From positions 1-46,359 of IMG/VR virus record IMGVR_UViG_3300025889_000199: a stretch of 46,359 nt of DNA. The stretch is one strand, 5' to 3'. Shown piece by piece: positions 26,121 to 33,466 of this stretch. The notes below the pieces were generated by a model that worked only from the letters and a program-made list of their open reading frames with translations, was not told the origin of the DNA and searched no databases. Positions within the stretch are counted from its first letter, which is position 1. Each line of letters begins with the position of its first letter. The position numbers and the translations under genes were made by a program. Origin of the DNA: a virus.

Positions 26121-26398
26121 CACGAATCCTCCAAACATTCTTCACACACCTGTTGTTTATCTTTATCGAAAGCAGTATCTATTATCTCATCAGATGTGTG
26201 CTCACTCCCACAACAGTCGCATACAAACAATGAACAGTTAGAGACAGAACAGTTGTCCTTCAAATGTTGTCTGTCGTGTAAATAATGTTCACACCAACAT
26301 TCACATCTGTCACTTGAATGGTGACCGCAGGTTAGTTCAGGGTCTTGATAATCATCATAAGCACCCCAATCCATACCATCAGGGTAGTTGCTGACCAT
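26120..26398 (-). CDS. Cysteine-rich multi-zinc protein
   Basis: A 92-aa acidic protein with about 12 Cys and several His: 'CGHHSSDRCECWC', 'HYLHDRQHLKDNC', 'FVCDCCGSEH' and a terminal 'VCEECLEDS'. It probably binds two or three zinc ions in a RING- or treble-clef-like array. Start by TGATG overlap, with GGAGAGGAGG before it. Could be a protein-protein adaptor; unknown. Confidence 0.55.
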   Translation of the reverse strand: MVSNYPDGMDWGAYDDYQDPELTCGHHSSDRCECWCEHYLHDRQHLKDNCSVSNCSLFVCDCCGSEHTSDEIIDTAFDKDKQQVCEECLEDS

Positions 26399-27105
26399 CA
26401 CTCCTCCTCTCCTAATGTGTAATCACGAGAGCAGTATGTTCCCCACATCCACGGTGGTACCTTCACACCAGTGTCAGGACATTCGCTACCGACCAGTACA
26501 CCCAGTTCATCTGTCGATGCCATCTCGTACATTTGTTGCCGTGTCATTGCTTTCAGATAACCGAGGTCATTCTTGTATCGCATGAATAAATCATCACCTG
26601 CTAATATGTTGTAGTCATCAGGATTCATGGCGATAACAGTATCACACTCTTGACATGTGACATTAACAGCCCAGTCCTCGATTGTATCTGTTTCACCGTT
26701 GTCAAGAAGAATCTCTCGCTCTCCCATAAAAGAAGGCGTACCTTCTTCAAGGTTCATGTCAGCGAGCCTCGTGCCACATTCACATTGCCATGCTGATGCC
26801 ACTGCTTGTCTTTCTTGTATCTCTTGCATGTATGCTTCTTCAACAGAAAGGGCAGCCTGCGTCACCATTACATCATCATCTTCTACACGAAGGTTGACAG
26901 TTTCCATCAGTCGCTTGATGCGTTCATGGTGGTGTATAGAATCGGGATGGTCTACCCTATGGTCAAGCGTTAGTGCATCGTCATCTGTTTTACGATACCT
27001 TAGACCAGTTCCTTCGGGTCGCCATATTCCATTGGGTGCCATTTGTCCAAAGTGCTCAAGCATCCATACTTGTAGTTCAGGGGGAAATTCTTCATTCATA
27101 TCCAT
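26398..27105 (-). CDS. Zinc-ribbon-containing protein, unknown function
   Basis: A 235-aa protein. The centre holds 'CECGTRLAD' and 'VTCQECDTV' (about residues 107-152), a zinc ribbon with a long insert. The rest is acidic and helical. Starts at ATG 27105; an ATG at 27099 forming an ATGA overlap with the upstream stop is an equally good choice. No homologue recognised. Confidence 0.5.
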   Translation of the reverse strand: MDMNEEFPPELQVWMLEHFGQMAPNGIWRPEGTGLRYRKTDDDALTLDHRVDHPDSIHHHERIKRLMETVNLRVEDDDVMVTQAALSVEEAYMQEIQERQAVASAWQCECGTRLADMNLEEGTPSFMGEREILLDNGETDTIEDWAVNVTCQECDTVIAMNPDDYNILAGDDLFMRYKNDLGYLKAMTRQQMYEMASTDELGVLVGSECPDTGVKVPPWMWGTYCSRDYTLGEEE

Positions 27106-27431
27106 TCGTTCATCACATCCTTGTTTGTTGTTTCTATATCGTACAGCATCATGGTGTCACAGCATTTACCTACAAGATAGAAGTGTTTCTCCATGATGAT
27201 GAAAAGTGAGTCGCTATCAGCAAGTGATTTGTGGCACATAGGACAATTCTCAATGTAATTGTAAGTACCACAGATTACTGCACTAACCCCCTCACGACCG
27301 TAGTCACTTGGGAGTTGTAATTGAACATTTCGTAGGTCTATAGTCATACCATTTGATAGAGTCCATAGCCCTTGACTACTGATACTGCTCGCCTTCAACT
27401 GCTCGGTGATACACTCGTCATTGTCCGGCAA
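27096..27431 (-). CDS. Small zinc-binding protein
   Basis: A 111-aa protein with 'CPMCHKSL' near residue 63 and 'GKCCDTMM' near residue 88, a probable zinc ribbon in a beta-rich context. No ATG precedes the conserved part. A TTG at 27431, 5 nt after GAGGAGGAAG and inside the upstream gene, is the likely start. Confidence 0.5.
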   Translation of the reverse strand: MPDNDECITEQLKASSISSQGLWTLSNGMTIDLRNVQLQLPSDYGREGVSAVICGTYNYIENCPMCHKSLADSDSLFIIMEKHFYLVGKCCDTMMLYDIETTNKDVMNEWI

Positions 27432-28938
27432 CTACTTCCTCCTCCTGAGTTTCAATGTTGTAATGAGGGAGACGCTCGAAATTCTTTCGGTGCTCATCAA
27501 TGACGATAGGAGCAGCGTTTCTCATGAGTGTAATCAAATCATTAGGTGATAGATAGTCCTCAGGGTCAACAGTGCCATGCATAACCATTCGGTCACTTTG
27601 ATTGATTTTTCGCACACCCCACTTAACACTGGTGCTCTCATTCTTTTCAAAGCCGACATGCACTCTATTAGCAAGGAAGCCACCGTTCTCAACATGGGCG
27701 TTCATGATGCTTTCAGCAAACGCTTGAGCCTGTGCTTGAGAAGGGAAGCGTAGATTAGTGAGCACAGATTTTACACTCCACTCATCCTCTTCTTTACGAC
27801 TTAGAATGTAATCGTTGATTTCTTCCTGAGGTACCCAAACGAAGTCAGCAATCTCGTGACCGTAGGATTTACGAGAGCGGGTCTTAGTGTAAACCCATCC
27901 ATTAGCAACCTCACCTTCTTTACGCTTCTTGCTGTTTGTCTTTTGAACATAGGATGTCATCTCAGCCAACCAACTCCAGTCAGACCATGAGTGAAGAGCA
28001 GTCTTACCACGACCTTCCTTAGAGACGATGTTATCTTCACGCTTCAACATACGAAGTAGACTCTTCTTGATGTAGCCAATGACCTCAGACTCAGGTACAT
28101 TTGCAGCCATACTGCGTCGAACCTCATCCCAACTCACTGTGTCTTTTGGATTGATGTTTCGCTCACTCCATTGGTTAGAGTTCCATCCACCGTATGTGGA
28201 TTCTCTTGAGTAAGCAGTCATGAAATCATCTCCGTCTCGGACCAATGCCCACATTTTTATCATCGGTGTATCGTGATGTAAACACTGTTTGTCAGCATCT
28301 TCTTTCTTTTCTTTCCAAGCACACTCACCTTTGTAAGACTTGATTGTGTAAATCAAACTTGCATCAGTTGATACAGATGCATCGGGGTACTTTTCTTGAA
28401 GTAAATCGAGCAGTGGTTTAAGAGCAGGAGAGTGAAGCAAATGCCTTACATCCATAGTGATGTGCTCAGTCGTTCTAAATGAGCACAAAGCACGAGCGGG
28501 GTGGTCGAGAGGAATTTCTTCATCGTTCATCCACTGTGTCATAGTACCGTGTGATAGAAAAGAAACCGTGTTTAATGACTCATTGAATACAGGTCTACGA
28601 AGTGTGACTTTGAAACCAGTAAATTCATCATGCCCACATGAAGGAGTATTAGGTTTAGGTACTTTACCGAATGCTACCTTTCGTGTCATGATGACTGCTG
28701 CTGCTCTTGTGTATGGGTTGACAAGGTCACTCCATGTTAACTGAGCATTAGGTCCAGCCTTCATTAGACTGTAAGCCACGGCTGCATCCATAGCCCAACA
28801 CATACCGATAGCATTCTTTGTACGACCAACAGCGTGGTCAACGATAATTGGCTCTTCACTGAAATCAAGCGAGTTCTCAACTACACCTGCGTTCAAATAA
28901 GCATCCCAATTTTTCCATCCTTTCCATTCTCCACTCAT
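27418..28938 (-). CDS. Large protein of unknown function (506 aa)
   Basis: Mixed alpha/beta protein with several Trp-rich stretches ('WKGWKNWDAYL', 'HSWSDWSWL'), a basic 'KTNSKKRKEG' patch near residue 335 and a helical C-terminus. No recognised motif. 'CGHDEFTG' and 'CAWKEKKED' hold isolated Cys that may bind zinc. ATGA coupling to the upstream gene places it second in the operon from promoter copy 4. Confidence 0.5.
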   Translation of the reverse strand: MSGEWKGWKNWDAYLNAGVVENSLDFSEEPIIVDHAVGRTKNAIGMCWAMDAAVAYSLMKAGPNAQLTWSDLVNPYTRAAAVIMTRKVAFGKVPKPNTPSCGHDEFTGFKVTLRRPVFNESLNTVSFLSHGTMTQWMNDEEIPLDHPARALCSFRTTEHITMDVRHLLHSPALKPLLDLLQEKYPDASVSTDASLIYTIKSYKGECAWKEKKEDADKQCLHHDTPMIKMWALVRDGDDFMTAYSRESTYGGWNSNQWSERNINPKDTVSWDEVRRSMAANVPESEVIGYIKKSLLRMLKREDNIVSKEGRGKTALHSWSDWSWLAEMTSYVQKTNSKKRKEGEVANGWVYTKTRSRKSYGHEIADFVWVPQEEINDYILSRKEEDEWSVKSVLTNLRFPSQAQAQAFAESIMNAHVENGGFLANRVHVGFEKNESTSVKWGVRKINQSDRMVMHGTVDPEDYLSPNDLITLMRNAAPIVIDEHRKNFERLPHYNIETQEEEVVAGQ

Positions 28939-29487: not shown

Positions 29488-29916
29488 TCATTCCTCCTCA
29501 CTTTCTACAGTATGAGCATTACCTGTTGTCAGCACCAACAATCCACTTTCTTTTGTAAACTGTATGAGTGTCTGCACTGCTAAGTTGTCATCATTCATGT
29601 CCATTTCTAACGCTGCTCCCTGTGGATGATTGAGTGACTCACCTAAGATAACTAACTGAGTCTTATCTCCATCCTCAAAGTAGTGACGCATTTCCGCTTC
29701 GATGTAAAGTAAGTTGCCACTCGCAGGACTTACAGTTGTAGGTTCCTGTTCTTGTAGCCAAGAAGTAAGTGCTGGCGGTGCTTGTAGTTCAAGTGCCAGT
29801 CCATACTTACGATTGACTTGAGTAGGTCCTACACCCTGTAGGTGTATTCTGTTCATGTCAAATTCACATCTAACTTGTAGTCTGTTCTTTCCGTATTGTC
29901 CATTTGCTTCATTCAT
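29488..29916 (-). CDS. Hypothetical protein (142 aa)
   Basis: Beta-rich in the middle ('LLYIEAEMRHYF', 'KTQLVILGES') with an acidic C-terminus. It has no recognised motif. The only gene between promoter copies 5 and 4, hence probably monocistronic. AGAGG lies upstream of the ATG with a rather long spacing. Confidence 0.5.
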   Translation of the reverse strand: MNEANGQYGKNRLQVRCEFDMNRIHLQGVGPTQVNRKYGLALELQAPPALTSWLQEQEPTTVSPASGNLLYIEAEMRHYFEDGDKTQLVILGESLNHPQGAALEMDMNDDNLAVQTLIQFTKESGLLVLTTGNAHTVESEEE

Positions 29917-29947: not shown

Positions 29948-29969
29948 TGATGTTGCTTTAAGTAGTGAA
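29948..29969 (-). promoter_or_regulatory. 22-bp promoter element, copy 5
   Basis: Perfect consensus CACTACTTAAAGCAACATC on the minus strand, 39 nt from TTAAAG to the ATG at 29916. Starts 1 nt after the stop of the phosphatase-like gene. Confidence 0.65.
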
Positions 29970-29970
29970 G

Positions 29971-31095
29971 TCAACAGTTGTCCTCCTTAAAATCATCAAT
30001 GAAGTCTAATAGGTTCTTACCCTTGAGTCCACCTTTAGGCACAGGTGGATTCTTTCTTTTCTTTCCATTCTTTTTCTTCTTGGGTTTCTGTGTCGCTTTG
30101 TATTCACAAGCAACACACTTGAAAGTCTTACCGTTGATAGTCTCAGGTATGTAGTATCTCTTACAGCCCTTACACTGTATGTCTCCTTTACGAGTCTTGA
30201 TGTCATTGTTATGAGCATGACACTCCATACACATGCCGTCATCTTGTATGGTCATTGCATTAACCATGTTGTCACAACCGTAGCACACTGACTGACACTC
30301 GTAAAGTGAGTCCTCAGCATTGATACGCTCAGGATTACCGCACCGGCATGGAGAATCTCTATTGTCCTCATGTGTCCACTCAGTTGCACCACACTCAAAG
30401 CACCCTAAGAGATTGAACTTCTTGGGTATGCTCAAGGAATCTTCTTCTTCAAGAGGGTCATCATCCCAGTAAATCGACTTAGGCTTGGGGATGTAGTCAC
30501 CTTCATCTGCAAAGTCAATTGAGACTGACGACTTTTTACTTAGTGGAAAAAGTGAATCACCCACAGGGATGTCACAACACTCAGCAACATACTCTTGCTG
30601 TGCAAATGTTTCTACAGCATGAGAGCAGTATGCTTGACGGACCCACTTGATTAGAGAGTAGGCATCAGGTTGTGAAGTAGCACCCATGATGTGAGCAAGG
30701 ATGGACAGTTGTACGCCAGTACGACCGTGACCACCGACACACTGAGTTGATACAGTCTTGATGCCGAGGCGTTGAATATCGTCAACCAAAGCCAACCACC
30801 ACTCACGACCTACATCTTGAGGTATGTCGAAGTCAGGGAAGTCCATGCTGATGATGTGAGTAGAGCCACCGACAAGATTAGCACAGTTGAATACACTGGG
30901 TACCTCGGTACCTTGTACTCTATCCATGACTTGAGACGGACCCATAGCAAGGTTAGGTGCAGGTGACATTCTGTGCCAACCACCGTTTCTGCTGTGACCA
31001 CCGCCGTGAACTGATACACCCATTGCCTCAAAGACAACAGGATTGCCAGTGTGACAGCCACCCTTAGTTCCAATTTCTTTCATCCAATTACTCAT
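29971..31095 (-). CDS. Protein-tyrosine-phosphatase-like domain fused to zinc ribbons
   Basis: A 374-aa protein. Residues 1-180 form a phosphatase-like domain: 'STQCVGGHGRTGV' is the CX5R(T) P-loop of Cys-based phosphatases and 'MDFPDFDIP' upstream could be the general-acid loop. After an acidic linker come at least three zinc modules: 'CFECGA...CRCG', 'CYGC...CMEC' and 'CKGC...CVAC'. The tail is Lys-rich ('KPKKKKNGKKRKN'). It may dephosphorylate proteins or RNA 5' ends while binding nucleic acid. The second ATG (31095) is best spaced from AAGGAGG. It is coupled by ATGA to the swivel-domain gene. Confidence 0.7.
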   Translation of the reverse strand: MSNWMKEIGTKGGCHTGNPVVFEAMGVSVHGGGHSRNGGWHRMSPAPNLAMGPSQVMDRVQGTEVPSVFNCANLVGGSTHIISMDFPDFDIPQDVGREWWLALVDDIQRLGIKTVSTQCVGGHGRTGVQLSILAHIMGATSQPDAYSLIKWVRQAYCSHAVETFAQQEYVAECCDIPVGDSLFPLSKKSSVSIDFADEGDYIPKPKSIYWDDDPLEEEDSLSIPKKFNLLGCFECGATEWTHEDNRDSPCRCGNPERINAEDSLYECQSVCYGCDNMVNAMTIQDDGMCMECHAHNNDIKTRKGDIQCKGCKRYYIPETINGKTFKCVACEYKATQKPKKKKNGKKRKNPPVPKGGLKGKNLLDFIDDFKEDNC

Positions 31096-31097
31096 TC

Positions 31098-33389
31098 TCA
31101 TTCCTCCTTTTTGTTTCCAATTAAAGCATTGACAAACTCTTCTTTGTCCTCTTGCTTGGAAAGGTATTTGTTCATGACATGTACCATCTCAGGATAGTCT
31201 AAGTCATCTGTATTCAGTGAAGCGTATATCTTCTTGAACTCCTCAGGAGTAGGGAAGAACTCTTTCGCTTTGATGAGTGCCACTTGTTGCTTGACCGAGG
31301 CACGAGTTTGAACAACTGAGCCGACGAGCCACACATCCAACTTGGTTGGTGTAAGCATGATGTCGATAGCACCGTCTTTGAACAAGTGATGAATCTCTTG
31401 TAGTTCAGGTACCTCAGACTCATTGTTAGCAGCCCATGTCATGAATGTAGCACAGGTACTACAAGTCTCAACACCACACATGATGAAGTCTTTACCGTAA
31501 GGTGAGTTGTGGCTACCTTTGTCTCCATGTCTGAAACCAACAGGCATTGTCTTTGCTGTTTCCTTCAACACAGATGGTATCTTTTCACCAATGGCGATAG
31601 GATTCTTTCGCCAGTATGCATTTGTTTTCTTGAATACGAAGTCGAGTATTTCATCCCAATCATTCTGAGGAGGCTCGGCTTTGAGCATAGCGTCTGTGTC
31701 GTTGATTAGTTCAGATGCCATGTAGTATGTCGCTGACATATTCTTGATGTCTTCACGGAGATTGAACCCATGAGTACCAGCATCGAGAGCACGCTTACTC
31801 AACCATTTGTTGAAGAGCATACCGTTGTTGTGTACTGTATTCTCAGACTTGTTAGCGATAACAATGAGAGCCTCAAGATTTTCATCAGTTGGTGCGTCGA
31901 TGAAGTTCTGTATTTGAGATGCAAGTAATGCACCAGTCTGCATCGAAGTAGCCCAAGCGGGACCACCATAGGAGTTGGACCAACCTTTCTCATAGTGCTT
32001 GGCAAGGAATGTCATCATCTTCGACATCTGATTGAAGGTCGGAAGTAAGTGACCCACCGCAGCGTAATAGTGGCTACGGTTGGAATCTAAGTGTGGAGTG
32101 TCATTGACTTTCTGCCATACATCTGAGCCGATGCAAGCCGTCATTGTAGCAAACAATGAGCCAGTGGCATTAGTCTTGAGTGATTGAGCGTGTCTCATCT
32201 CACCAAGACCGAGTGCCATAATTGACTTAGCCAACCATGTAGTAAATACACCAGCAAGATATGCTACTTGCTTAGGCTCACTCAAAGGTAGGCTGACCCA
32301 CTGATGAAAGAAGGTAGCAAACCAACCTTGTTGTTTAGCCCAGTAATGATTACCTGCATGAATACCAGCGATGAAATCTTCTTTGAATGCCATTGGGTTG
32401 TAAGGCTTAGGCTCAAACTGATTGTCATTGTCAAGCACGACCCAACCACTTGATGCTTCAACCCATCGGTCACCAATATTGACTGACTCAGCGATAACAT
32501 AAGGTACACCAACACCACGACAGTGAGCATAGATGTGAGAAAGACGAGAGCCGTTTGGTTCAACAACCATGTAGCCATCAGGACACTTCTCTTTGGTAAT
32601 GTTCTCCTCAAGCCAAGCAACTTCTTCAAGACCACTCATCATGATGAAGTCACTAATGACAACTTCACCTTGAGGGACCATACCGATTGTGTCAACGCCT
32701 TCGGGTGGCGGTGCAACTGGTGTGTGCTCAGGAGCACCACGAATCTGTGTAAGCCATTCGGAGTCGGCTTTAGACCAATCGAATACACCACGGTTTCTTC
32801 TACCATCTTTACCAGTGTCAATATTGAATACAAATTCTAACTCGTGTTCAGCAGGACTGTAGCCGAGTGCTTTCATTGAGATGTTGTCGCTGTGTTTTTC
32901 TTCTCGTAGTGGGAAGCCCAGTTGTAAACCATGACCAGCAGTGACACCATCATGGTCAGGACCAAAGACAGCATAGCCTTGAAAATCTCCATGACTGAGA
33001 GCAATCACTGCACTGTTCACTGCTTCAATGTAAGGCATGAGCATGAGACAACCTTCGGGGTCTTCTTTCTGCATGATACCTTTCAGTCTTGTAAACTCAA
33101 GATGGAGTTGCTTCATGTCATTACACTTGACTGATTCAAGTACGCCGTGTCTTGGATTCAGTGGACATGTTCTCAAGAAGGCAGGGAACTTGGTAATCGT
33201 TCCTGCTGATTCAACTTGTAGCATTGTGTCCGTCAATAGCAATGGTATTGCATCCGGTACTTTCCAGTCATGTGGTATGCTGAAAGTCTTGAAGGCTTTT
33301 GCATAATTGAATATAGCAAGAGCCTTTTGAGACTTAACCTCATCCAGTCTTTCTTTACTTAGTAATTCATTCATCGTTATTAGTTCCAT
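31098..33389 (-). CDS. Large protein with phosphohistidine (PEP-utiliser) swivel-like segment
   Basis: A 763-aa protein. Near residues 235-340, 'GMVPQGEVVIS', a helical turn, 'NGSRLSHIYAHCRGVGVPYVI' and 'GDRWVEASSGWVV' follow the layout of the mobile phosphohistidine domain of PEP-utilising enzymes (family GGxxSHxAixARxxGiPxvv, then GDxxxvdgxxGxv), with the key Ser-His present. No ATP-grasp or TIM-barrel partner is recognised in the rest, which is largely helical. A Cys cluster 'CGVETCSTC' lies near residue 640. GAGG 8 nt before the ATG; promoter copy 6 upstream. Function unknown; a phosphotransfer role is inferred. Confidence 0.5.
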   Translation of the reverse strand: MELITMNELLSKERLDEVKSQKALAIFNYAKAFKTFSIPHDWKVPDAIPLLLTDTMLQVESAGTITKFPAFLRTCPLNPRHGVLESVKCNDMKQLHLEFTRLKGIMQKEDPEGCLMLMPYIEAVNSAVIALSHGDFQGYAVFGPDHDGVTAGHGLQLGFPLREEKHSDNISMKALGYSPAEHELEFVFNIDTGKDGRRNRGVFDWSKADSEWLTQIRGAPEHTPVAPPPEGVDTIGMVPQGEVVISDFIMMSGLEEVAWLEENITKEKCPDGYMVVEPNGSRLSHIYAHCRGVGVPYVIAESVNIGDRWVEASSGWVVLDNDNQFEPKPYNPMAFKEDFIAGIHAGNHYWAKQQGWFATFFHQWVSLPLSEPKQVAYLAGVFTTWLAKSIMALGLGEMRHAQSLKTNATGSLFATMTACIGSDVWQKVNDTPHLDSNRSHYYAAVGHLLPTFNQMSKMMTFLAKHYEKGWSNSYGGPAWATSMQTGALLASQIQNFIDAPTDENLEALIVIANKSENTVHNNGMLFNKWLSKRALDAGTHGFNLREDIKNMSATYYMASELINDTDAMLKAEPPQNDWDEILDFVFKKTNAYWRKNPIAIGEKIPSVLKETAKTMPVGFRHGDKGSHNSPYGKDFIMCGVETCSTCATFMTWAANNESEVPELQEIHHLFKDGAIDIMLTPTKLDVWLVGSVVQTRASVKQQVALIKAKEFFPTPEEFKKIYASLNTDDLDYPEMVHVMNKYLSKQEDKEEFVNALIGNKKEE

Positions 33390-33466
33390 TTCAATTCCTC
33401 AGTTTTGTTGCTTCTTTTATTTGATGTTGCTTTAAGTAGTGAAAGGTTCAGTCTATCGTTTTTCAT
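33380..33466 (-). CDS. 28-aa micro-ORF MKNDRLNLSLLKATS
   Basis: The ATG overlaps the stop of the 36-aa Cys-rich ORF (ATGA). The peptide aligns with that at 39722-39799 (MKTDRLNLSLLKATS). It runs across promoter copy 6 into the next gene. Translated peptide or promoter by-product cannot be decided from sequence. Confidence 0.3.
   Translation of the reverse strand: MKNDRLNLSLLKATSNKRSNKTEELKWN
33422..33443 (-). promoter_or_regulatory. 22-bp promoter element, copy 6
   Basis: Perfect consensus, 40 nt from TTAAAG to the ATG of the swivel-domain gene. Extended left similarity (GATAGACTGAACCTT) is shared with copies 9 and 10. Confidence 0.65.

Follow-up and report, generated by a model that had tools for sequence, protein, structure and literature searches.

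PPDK and PEP synthase combine an ATP-grasp domain, a swivel domain that bears a phosphohistidine and a PEP/pyruvate barrel. RPH likewise has an ATP-grasp domain and a His swivel without the PEP barrel, and its rifampin-binding domain lies between the two. In plants, glucan water dikinase, which works through a phosphohistidine, is paired with the DSP glucan phosphatase SEX4, and both act on one polymer. Bacterial phages also encode a protein annotated as PPDK, for which a glycolytic role has been published: PEP was docked into residues 524-691 of the vibriophage PPDK (PMC12038007), and the same reading was given in other reports (PMC9229204, PMC10141217). In the literature searched, which did not include one key 2017 paper, no description was found of the magrovirus gene pair presented here.

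The window, i.e. the whole stretch of DNA that was analysed (46,359 bp), is an IMG/VR virus record in its full length. It carries thermosome, PolB, clamp, clamp loader and primase-like genes, as do Poseidoniales magroviruses (PMC10768690). The virus is a magrovirus, i.e. a marine Poseidoniales virus with an archaeal host. The original prediction had placed a swivel-domain gene and a phosphatase gene, coupled by an ATGA overlap, under one viral promoter. Both ORFs and the overlap are present on the minus strand, and the locus is organised as follows:

33423-33443, minus strand: copy 6 of a promoter-like motif (TTCACTACTTAAAGCAACATC), probably a TATA box with its flanks, upstream of the pair
31098-33389, minus strand: predicted dikinase gene (763 aa), with ATP-grasp domain, phosphohistidine-type swivel and helical phrog_20946-like domain
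32724-33365, minus strand: ATP-grasp domain, residues ~9-222 (structural matches at Z 16.5 and 15.0), with K22, R73, E183, E185, Q215 and R217 invariant in 21/21 sequences
32424-32687, minus strand: swivel domain, residues ~235-322, with GSRLSHIYAHCRGVGVPY and the predicted phosphohistidine H285 (32535-32537)
31401-32372, minus strand: C-terminal helical domain, residues ~340-663, homologous to phrog_20946 by hhalign
31800-32243, minus strand: best aligned core of the phrog_20946-like domain, residues 383-530
31452-31478, minus strand: Cys cluster C638-x4-C643-xx-C646, invariant in 21/21 sequences, which probably binds zinc
31098-31101, minus strand: ATGA stop/start overlap coupling the two genes
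29971-31101, minus strand: gene for a Cys-based phosphatase of PTP/DSP fold (376 aa)
30721-30741, minus strand: PTP signature C121-VGGHG-R127 (21/21), with the general acid D90 in the upstream WPDF loop
30016-30399, minus strand: Cys-rich (CxxC) region and Lys-rich tail at the C-terminus of the phosphatase, seen in the alignment
29949-29969, minus strand: copy 5 of the promoter-like motif, at the start of the next transcription unit
29488-29916, minus strand: 142-aa protein of unassigned function, downstream of the pair in 10/10 relatives examined

The term swivel-domain gene was correct but incomplete: the swivel is present, but it is preceded by an N-terminal ATP-grasp domain and followed by a helical C-terminal domain of ~400 aa. 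In single-sequence searches the 763-aa protein gave no Pfam, PHROG or PDB match of note, and none in viral contigs. It was placed through an alignment of its relatives, a structure model and the phage cassettes described below. The alignment contained the window protein and 20 relatives (21 sequences, 27-77% identity), and the AlphaFold2 model obtained with it had a pLDDT of 83 and a pTM of 0.79. Residues 9-330 of the model, ATP-grasp and swivel together, matched RPH best (5hv3, Z 16.5), followed by PPDK (1dik, Z 15.0), which has the same ATP-grasp-then-swivel order; single ATP-grasp proteins scored lower (Z 10-13), and the Foldseek E-values were modest on their own (best 1.6e-3). Unlike in RPH, the swivel of the model follows the ATP-grasp domain directly; the additional domain lies at the C-terminus and is not related in sequence to the rifampin-binding domain.

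When mapped by eye, K22, R73, E185, Q215, R217 and H285 correspond to PPDK K22, R92, E323, Q335, R337 and H455, and they include the catalytic Lys, Arg, Glu and Gln-x-Arg of the PPDK and PEP synthase ATP-grasp domain. These residues, together with E183 and S284, are invariant in all 21 sequences, down to 27% identity. The swivel matches that of PPDK and PEP synthase by sequence and fold, with phosphorylation predicted, and could be aligned with the phage PPDK swivel; PF00391 (PEP-utilizers) was weakly matched in 4/21 members (best E 0.0068). Over ATP-grasp and swivel, hhalign comparison with the phage family phrog_18609 gave E-values of 0.056 and 0.02, weak by sequence alone, and the ATP-grasp kinship to phage PPDK rests on the modelled structure. 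Together with the residue conservation, it suggests that the 763-aa protein would act as a dikinase, converting ATP to AMP via a phosphohistidine. The phosphohistidine-like carrier of the original prediction is thus supported by an invariant predicted H285 lying inside both structural matches, and its description as self-contained gains weight, since the ATP-grasp domain that would charge the carrier is part of the same protein.

The magrovirus protein does not contain the PEP/pyruvate barrel; where PPDK has it, the C-terminal region aligns with phrog_20946. This family first surfaced as a PHROG match of the 763-aa protein alone at E 0.18. The hhalign comparison of the C-terminal domain with eight phage phrog_20946 proteins then gave a probability of 97.1 and an E-value of 6.5e-11. 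With 48 phrog_20946 sequences the E-value was 6.6e-12, against 0.065 for the reversed control, and the PTP and dikinase alignments gave 0.1 or worse. The magrovirus domain also has the phrog_20946 motifs ExRH, GGYGG-W and HNNG-FNK. A known fold for this domain was not found. In BFVD, the first and third matches of the magrovirus model are 685 and 326 aa long, which are the lengths of the dikinase and phrog_20946 proteins of Vibrio phage PG28; as these matches are unnamed, we infer their identity from the lengths.

The product of the second gene has all the features of a Cys-based PTP/DSP, i.e. the C-x5-R signature, the WPD acid and the PTP fold, and C121, R127, P89, D90, Q168 and Q169 are invariant in 21/21 sequences, in line with the Cys phosphatase originally proposed. 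The Cys-x5-Arg fold is common to VHZ/DUSP23 and Tk-PTP (Foldseek E 8e-5 and 2e-4), but the magrovirus protein additionally ends in a Cys-rich region and a Lys-rich tail, which may bind nucleic acid. Phage PTPs are homologues of the magrovirus enzyme (E 2.9e-19), and in tblastn searches against phages only the PTP was matched. A thymidylate synthase identity for this phosphatase, suggested by the phrog_17568 label (DLP5, SIO-2), was rejected on the PTP fold and the absence of PF00303 from 18/18 genomes. The label, found in the DLP5, SIO-2 and CAU_VPP01 records, seems to be an annotation error that spread between records.

The same three components are found on one strand in bacterial phages, including Vibrio PG28, Stenotrophomonas DLP3, Rhodobacter RcZahn and Rhizobium RHph_TM16. 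The cassette has the order phrog_18609 ('PPDK'), small genes, PTP (phrog_17568), phrog_20946 and then a second PTP or another gene, and it is located near the terminase, DNA polymerase and portal genes. Its PTP and phrog_20946 domain are homologous to their magrovirus counterparts. It differs in having separate genes, one or two PTPs and often a CsrA-like gene in between, and its dikinase is clearly PPDK-derived with insertions, whereas the magrovirus version is without them. At L112-L119, from several bacterial phages, the small CsrA-like gene (PF02599, E 2.6e-6 in PG28) lies between the dikinase and the first PTP. Dikinase and phrog_20946 counts were identical in phage records (Vibrio 33, Stenotrophomonas 4, Rhizobium 2 and Rhodobacter 1). 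At 58 IMG/VR phrog_20946 loci, a PTP was present in 54 and a dikinase in 42 within the stretch examined, several of the rest being cut. On one phage contig (L167), dikinase and phrog_20946 form one ORF followed by the PTP, which is the magrovirus layout. A search of ~85,000 cellular genomes yielded only 8 loci; a phage-like cassette is present at six of them (one of the six cut).

Other arrangements were also observed. L168-L176 carry phrog_20946 and PTP pairs with no dikinase detected within the stretch examined, and at L168-L172 both proteins are rich in Cys-x-x-Cys motifs. At L178-L180 and L188, the phrog_20946-like domain lies inside proteins of 838 to 1,328 aa, with no dikinase or PTP detected beside it. 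Given the arrangements at L168-L176 and L178-L180, the phrog_20946 domain can therefore work in other settings.

Both genes are present in 23 of 46 magrovirus records, in each case next to one another on the same strand. Absence of the pair from half of the magroviruses was considered and rejected: the 22 records without it extend only 1.3-13.1 kb upstream of PolB and stop short of the site, while all 24 records with at least 13.8 kb upstream of PolB hold the site, with the pair complete in 23 and only a PTP cut by the contig end in one. Scans with the two alignments, not seeded by PolB, yielded 96 loci from ~58 contigs, of which 91 had the genes adjacent within 200 nt; three had the PTP 0.8-1.8 kb downstream and two were cut by contig ends. 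A closely adjacent pair was thereby found in ~53 of the 58 contigs (some scanned records are near-duplicates, and these counts are therefore not independent). The original prediction asked whether the pair is conserved and adjacent in related viruses, and in every record with the 763-aa gene (23/23) this was the case; separation of the two genes in most relatives was not seen. The ATGA overlap is also retained in most relatives. At L238, L240 and L243, a magrovirus-type dikinase lies in far longer ORFs (880-1,423 aa), with a PTP 0.8-1.8 kb downstream. The 142-aa protein is a possible third partner of the pair in magroviruses; in one of the 10 relatives a helicase gene sits between the pair and the 142-aa gene. 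Proteins of 506 aa (27418-28938) and 235 aa (26398-27105), encoded near the pair on the minus strand, are kept in 7/10 and 8/10 relatives.

The motif TTCACTACTTAAAGCAACATC occurs in 13 copies in the window, numbered from the low-coordinate end and all on the minus strand, versus 0.01 expected by chance. Copy 6 is located 33 nt before the first ATG of the dikinase gene and copy 5 directly past the PTP stop, ahead of the next gene, as originally described. Close relatives retain TTCACTACTTAAAGCAACATC upstream of the pair. The next clade has GTTGATATATAAAGCARCA at the position of copy 6, for which TATATAAAG is also given, and more distant relatives have TATTTAAAG at the promoter position; in several of the most distant ones (L073-L078) no box was seen and the upstream gene abuts the pair. 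Since GTTGATATATAAAGCARCA and TATTTAAAG occupy the same position in relatives, what was called a viral promoter resembles a TATA-box promoter of the archaeal type. The 13 sites, spread over 21638-45753 of the minus strand, have a TATA-like core with a fixed upstream part, and a TFB encoded by the virus may recognise them.

On balance, the pair is probably a viral dikinase-phosphatase module. ATP would bind to the PPDK/RPH-type ATP-grasp domain of the first protein, and His285 of the mobile swivel would take over a phosphoryl group from it. The swivel would then hand this group on not to pyruvate but to an acceptor bound at the C-terminal phrog_20946-type domain. This acceptor would be a macromolecule rather than a glycolytic metabolite. 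The PTP, made from the same mRNA, would then remove or trim the phosphate, and the outcome would be a reversible mark or a two-step phosphorylation and dephosphorylation. In bacterial phages the same system would be spread over separate genes (dikinase, one or two PTPs and phrog_20946), with dikinase and phrog_20946 fused in magroviruses and in one phage. The role against the host or in virion assembly that the original prediction gave to the switch finds no support so far. Glucan water dikinase and SEX4 may offer a works-like analogy, but no glucan-binding domain was found in the magrovirus pair. Adjacency of the two genes may also reflect co-regulation and not a shared substrate.

The published alternative, in which an auxiliary metabolic gene encodes an enzyme that interconverts pyruvate and PEP and boosts host carbon metabolism, as described for the vibriophage relatives, appears highly improbable. 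Over residues 1-590, phage proteins are matched to PPDK at an E-value of ~1e-180, and they carry that annotation, but PEP-utilizers_C (PF02896), the PEP/pyruvate barrel, was missing from 18/18 viral genomes and present in 14/14 control genomes. The phage 'PPDK' is therefore probably mis-annotated as glycolytic, and a glycolytic role is unlikely. The phage dikinases are limited to the PPDK_N and PEP-utilizers domains, the barrel's place in the magrovirus protein is taken by an unrelated helical domain, and the PTP partner has no role in the pyruvate/PEP pathway. That dikinase and PTP genes are neighbours through co-regulation only, with different targets, is quite unlikely as well. Viral operons often mix functions, and in phages small genes, CsrA-like ones among them, stand between the dikinase and PTP genes; however, the same partners recur, with differing spacing, in magroviruses and several unrelated bacterial phage groups, and two independent-looking fusions exist.

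A swivel-to-His relay exists in PTS enzyme I, and the helical domain adjoining the His swivel has several invariant or near-invariant His residues. H400 or H520 could serve there as a second phosphohistidine, which H285 would charge and the PTP would discharge, in a phosphorelay used for signalling and not for chemical modification; we regard this as unlikely, as no HPt or PTS similarity was found and the H400 column is substituted in 2/21 sequences. Doubtful, too, is a modification of DNA or nucleotides, in which the dikinase would phosphorylate viral DNA bases or their precursors, the PTP would trim the product and the genome would be protected. The module phages DLP3 and DLP5 provide a hint, as their DNA resists most restriction enzymes (15/15 resistant; only 4/36 cut) (PMC7326821, PMC5834331); the module also lies near the terminase, DNA polymerase and portal genes, and the magrovirus PTP has its Cys-rich region and Lys-rich tail. 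Such resistance is nevertheless widespread among Stenotrophomonas phages: it is also seen in AXL3 and DLP4, neither of which appears among the module-bearing records recovered here. For other module phages, no restriction data were found in the literature searched. No PF00303 gene (thymidylate synthase/dUMP hydroxymethylase-type) was found in the 18 genomes, and hmdU-type DNA hypermodification is accordingly not supported.

The enzyme classes of the dikinase-phosphatase module are known; as far as the searches show, the combination and the presumed acceptor domain are new. More tentatively, it is possible that a virus-specific phosphotransfer system operates in archaeal and bacterial tailed viruses, where a dikinase without the PEP domain would mark viral DNA, RNA or protein via phrog_20946 and the PTP would be the eraser. 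If true, viral material would carry a reversible phosphate mark of a new type. The module joins three separately annotated orphans, the 'PPDK' auxiliary metabolic gene, the 'tyrosine phosphatase' and phrog_20946, across archaeal and bacterial tailed viruses. It argues against the published glycolytic auxiliary-gene reading of phage PPDK, because the PEP/pyruvate domain is absent, and the question of what phage PPDK does becomes that of which target the swivel histidine phosphorylates.
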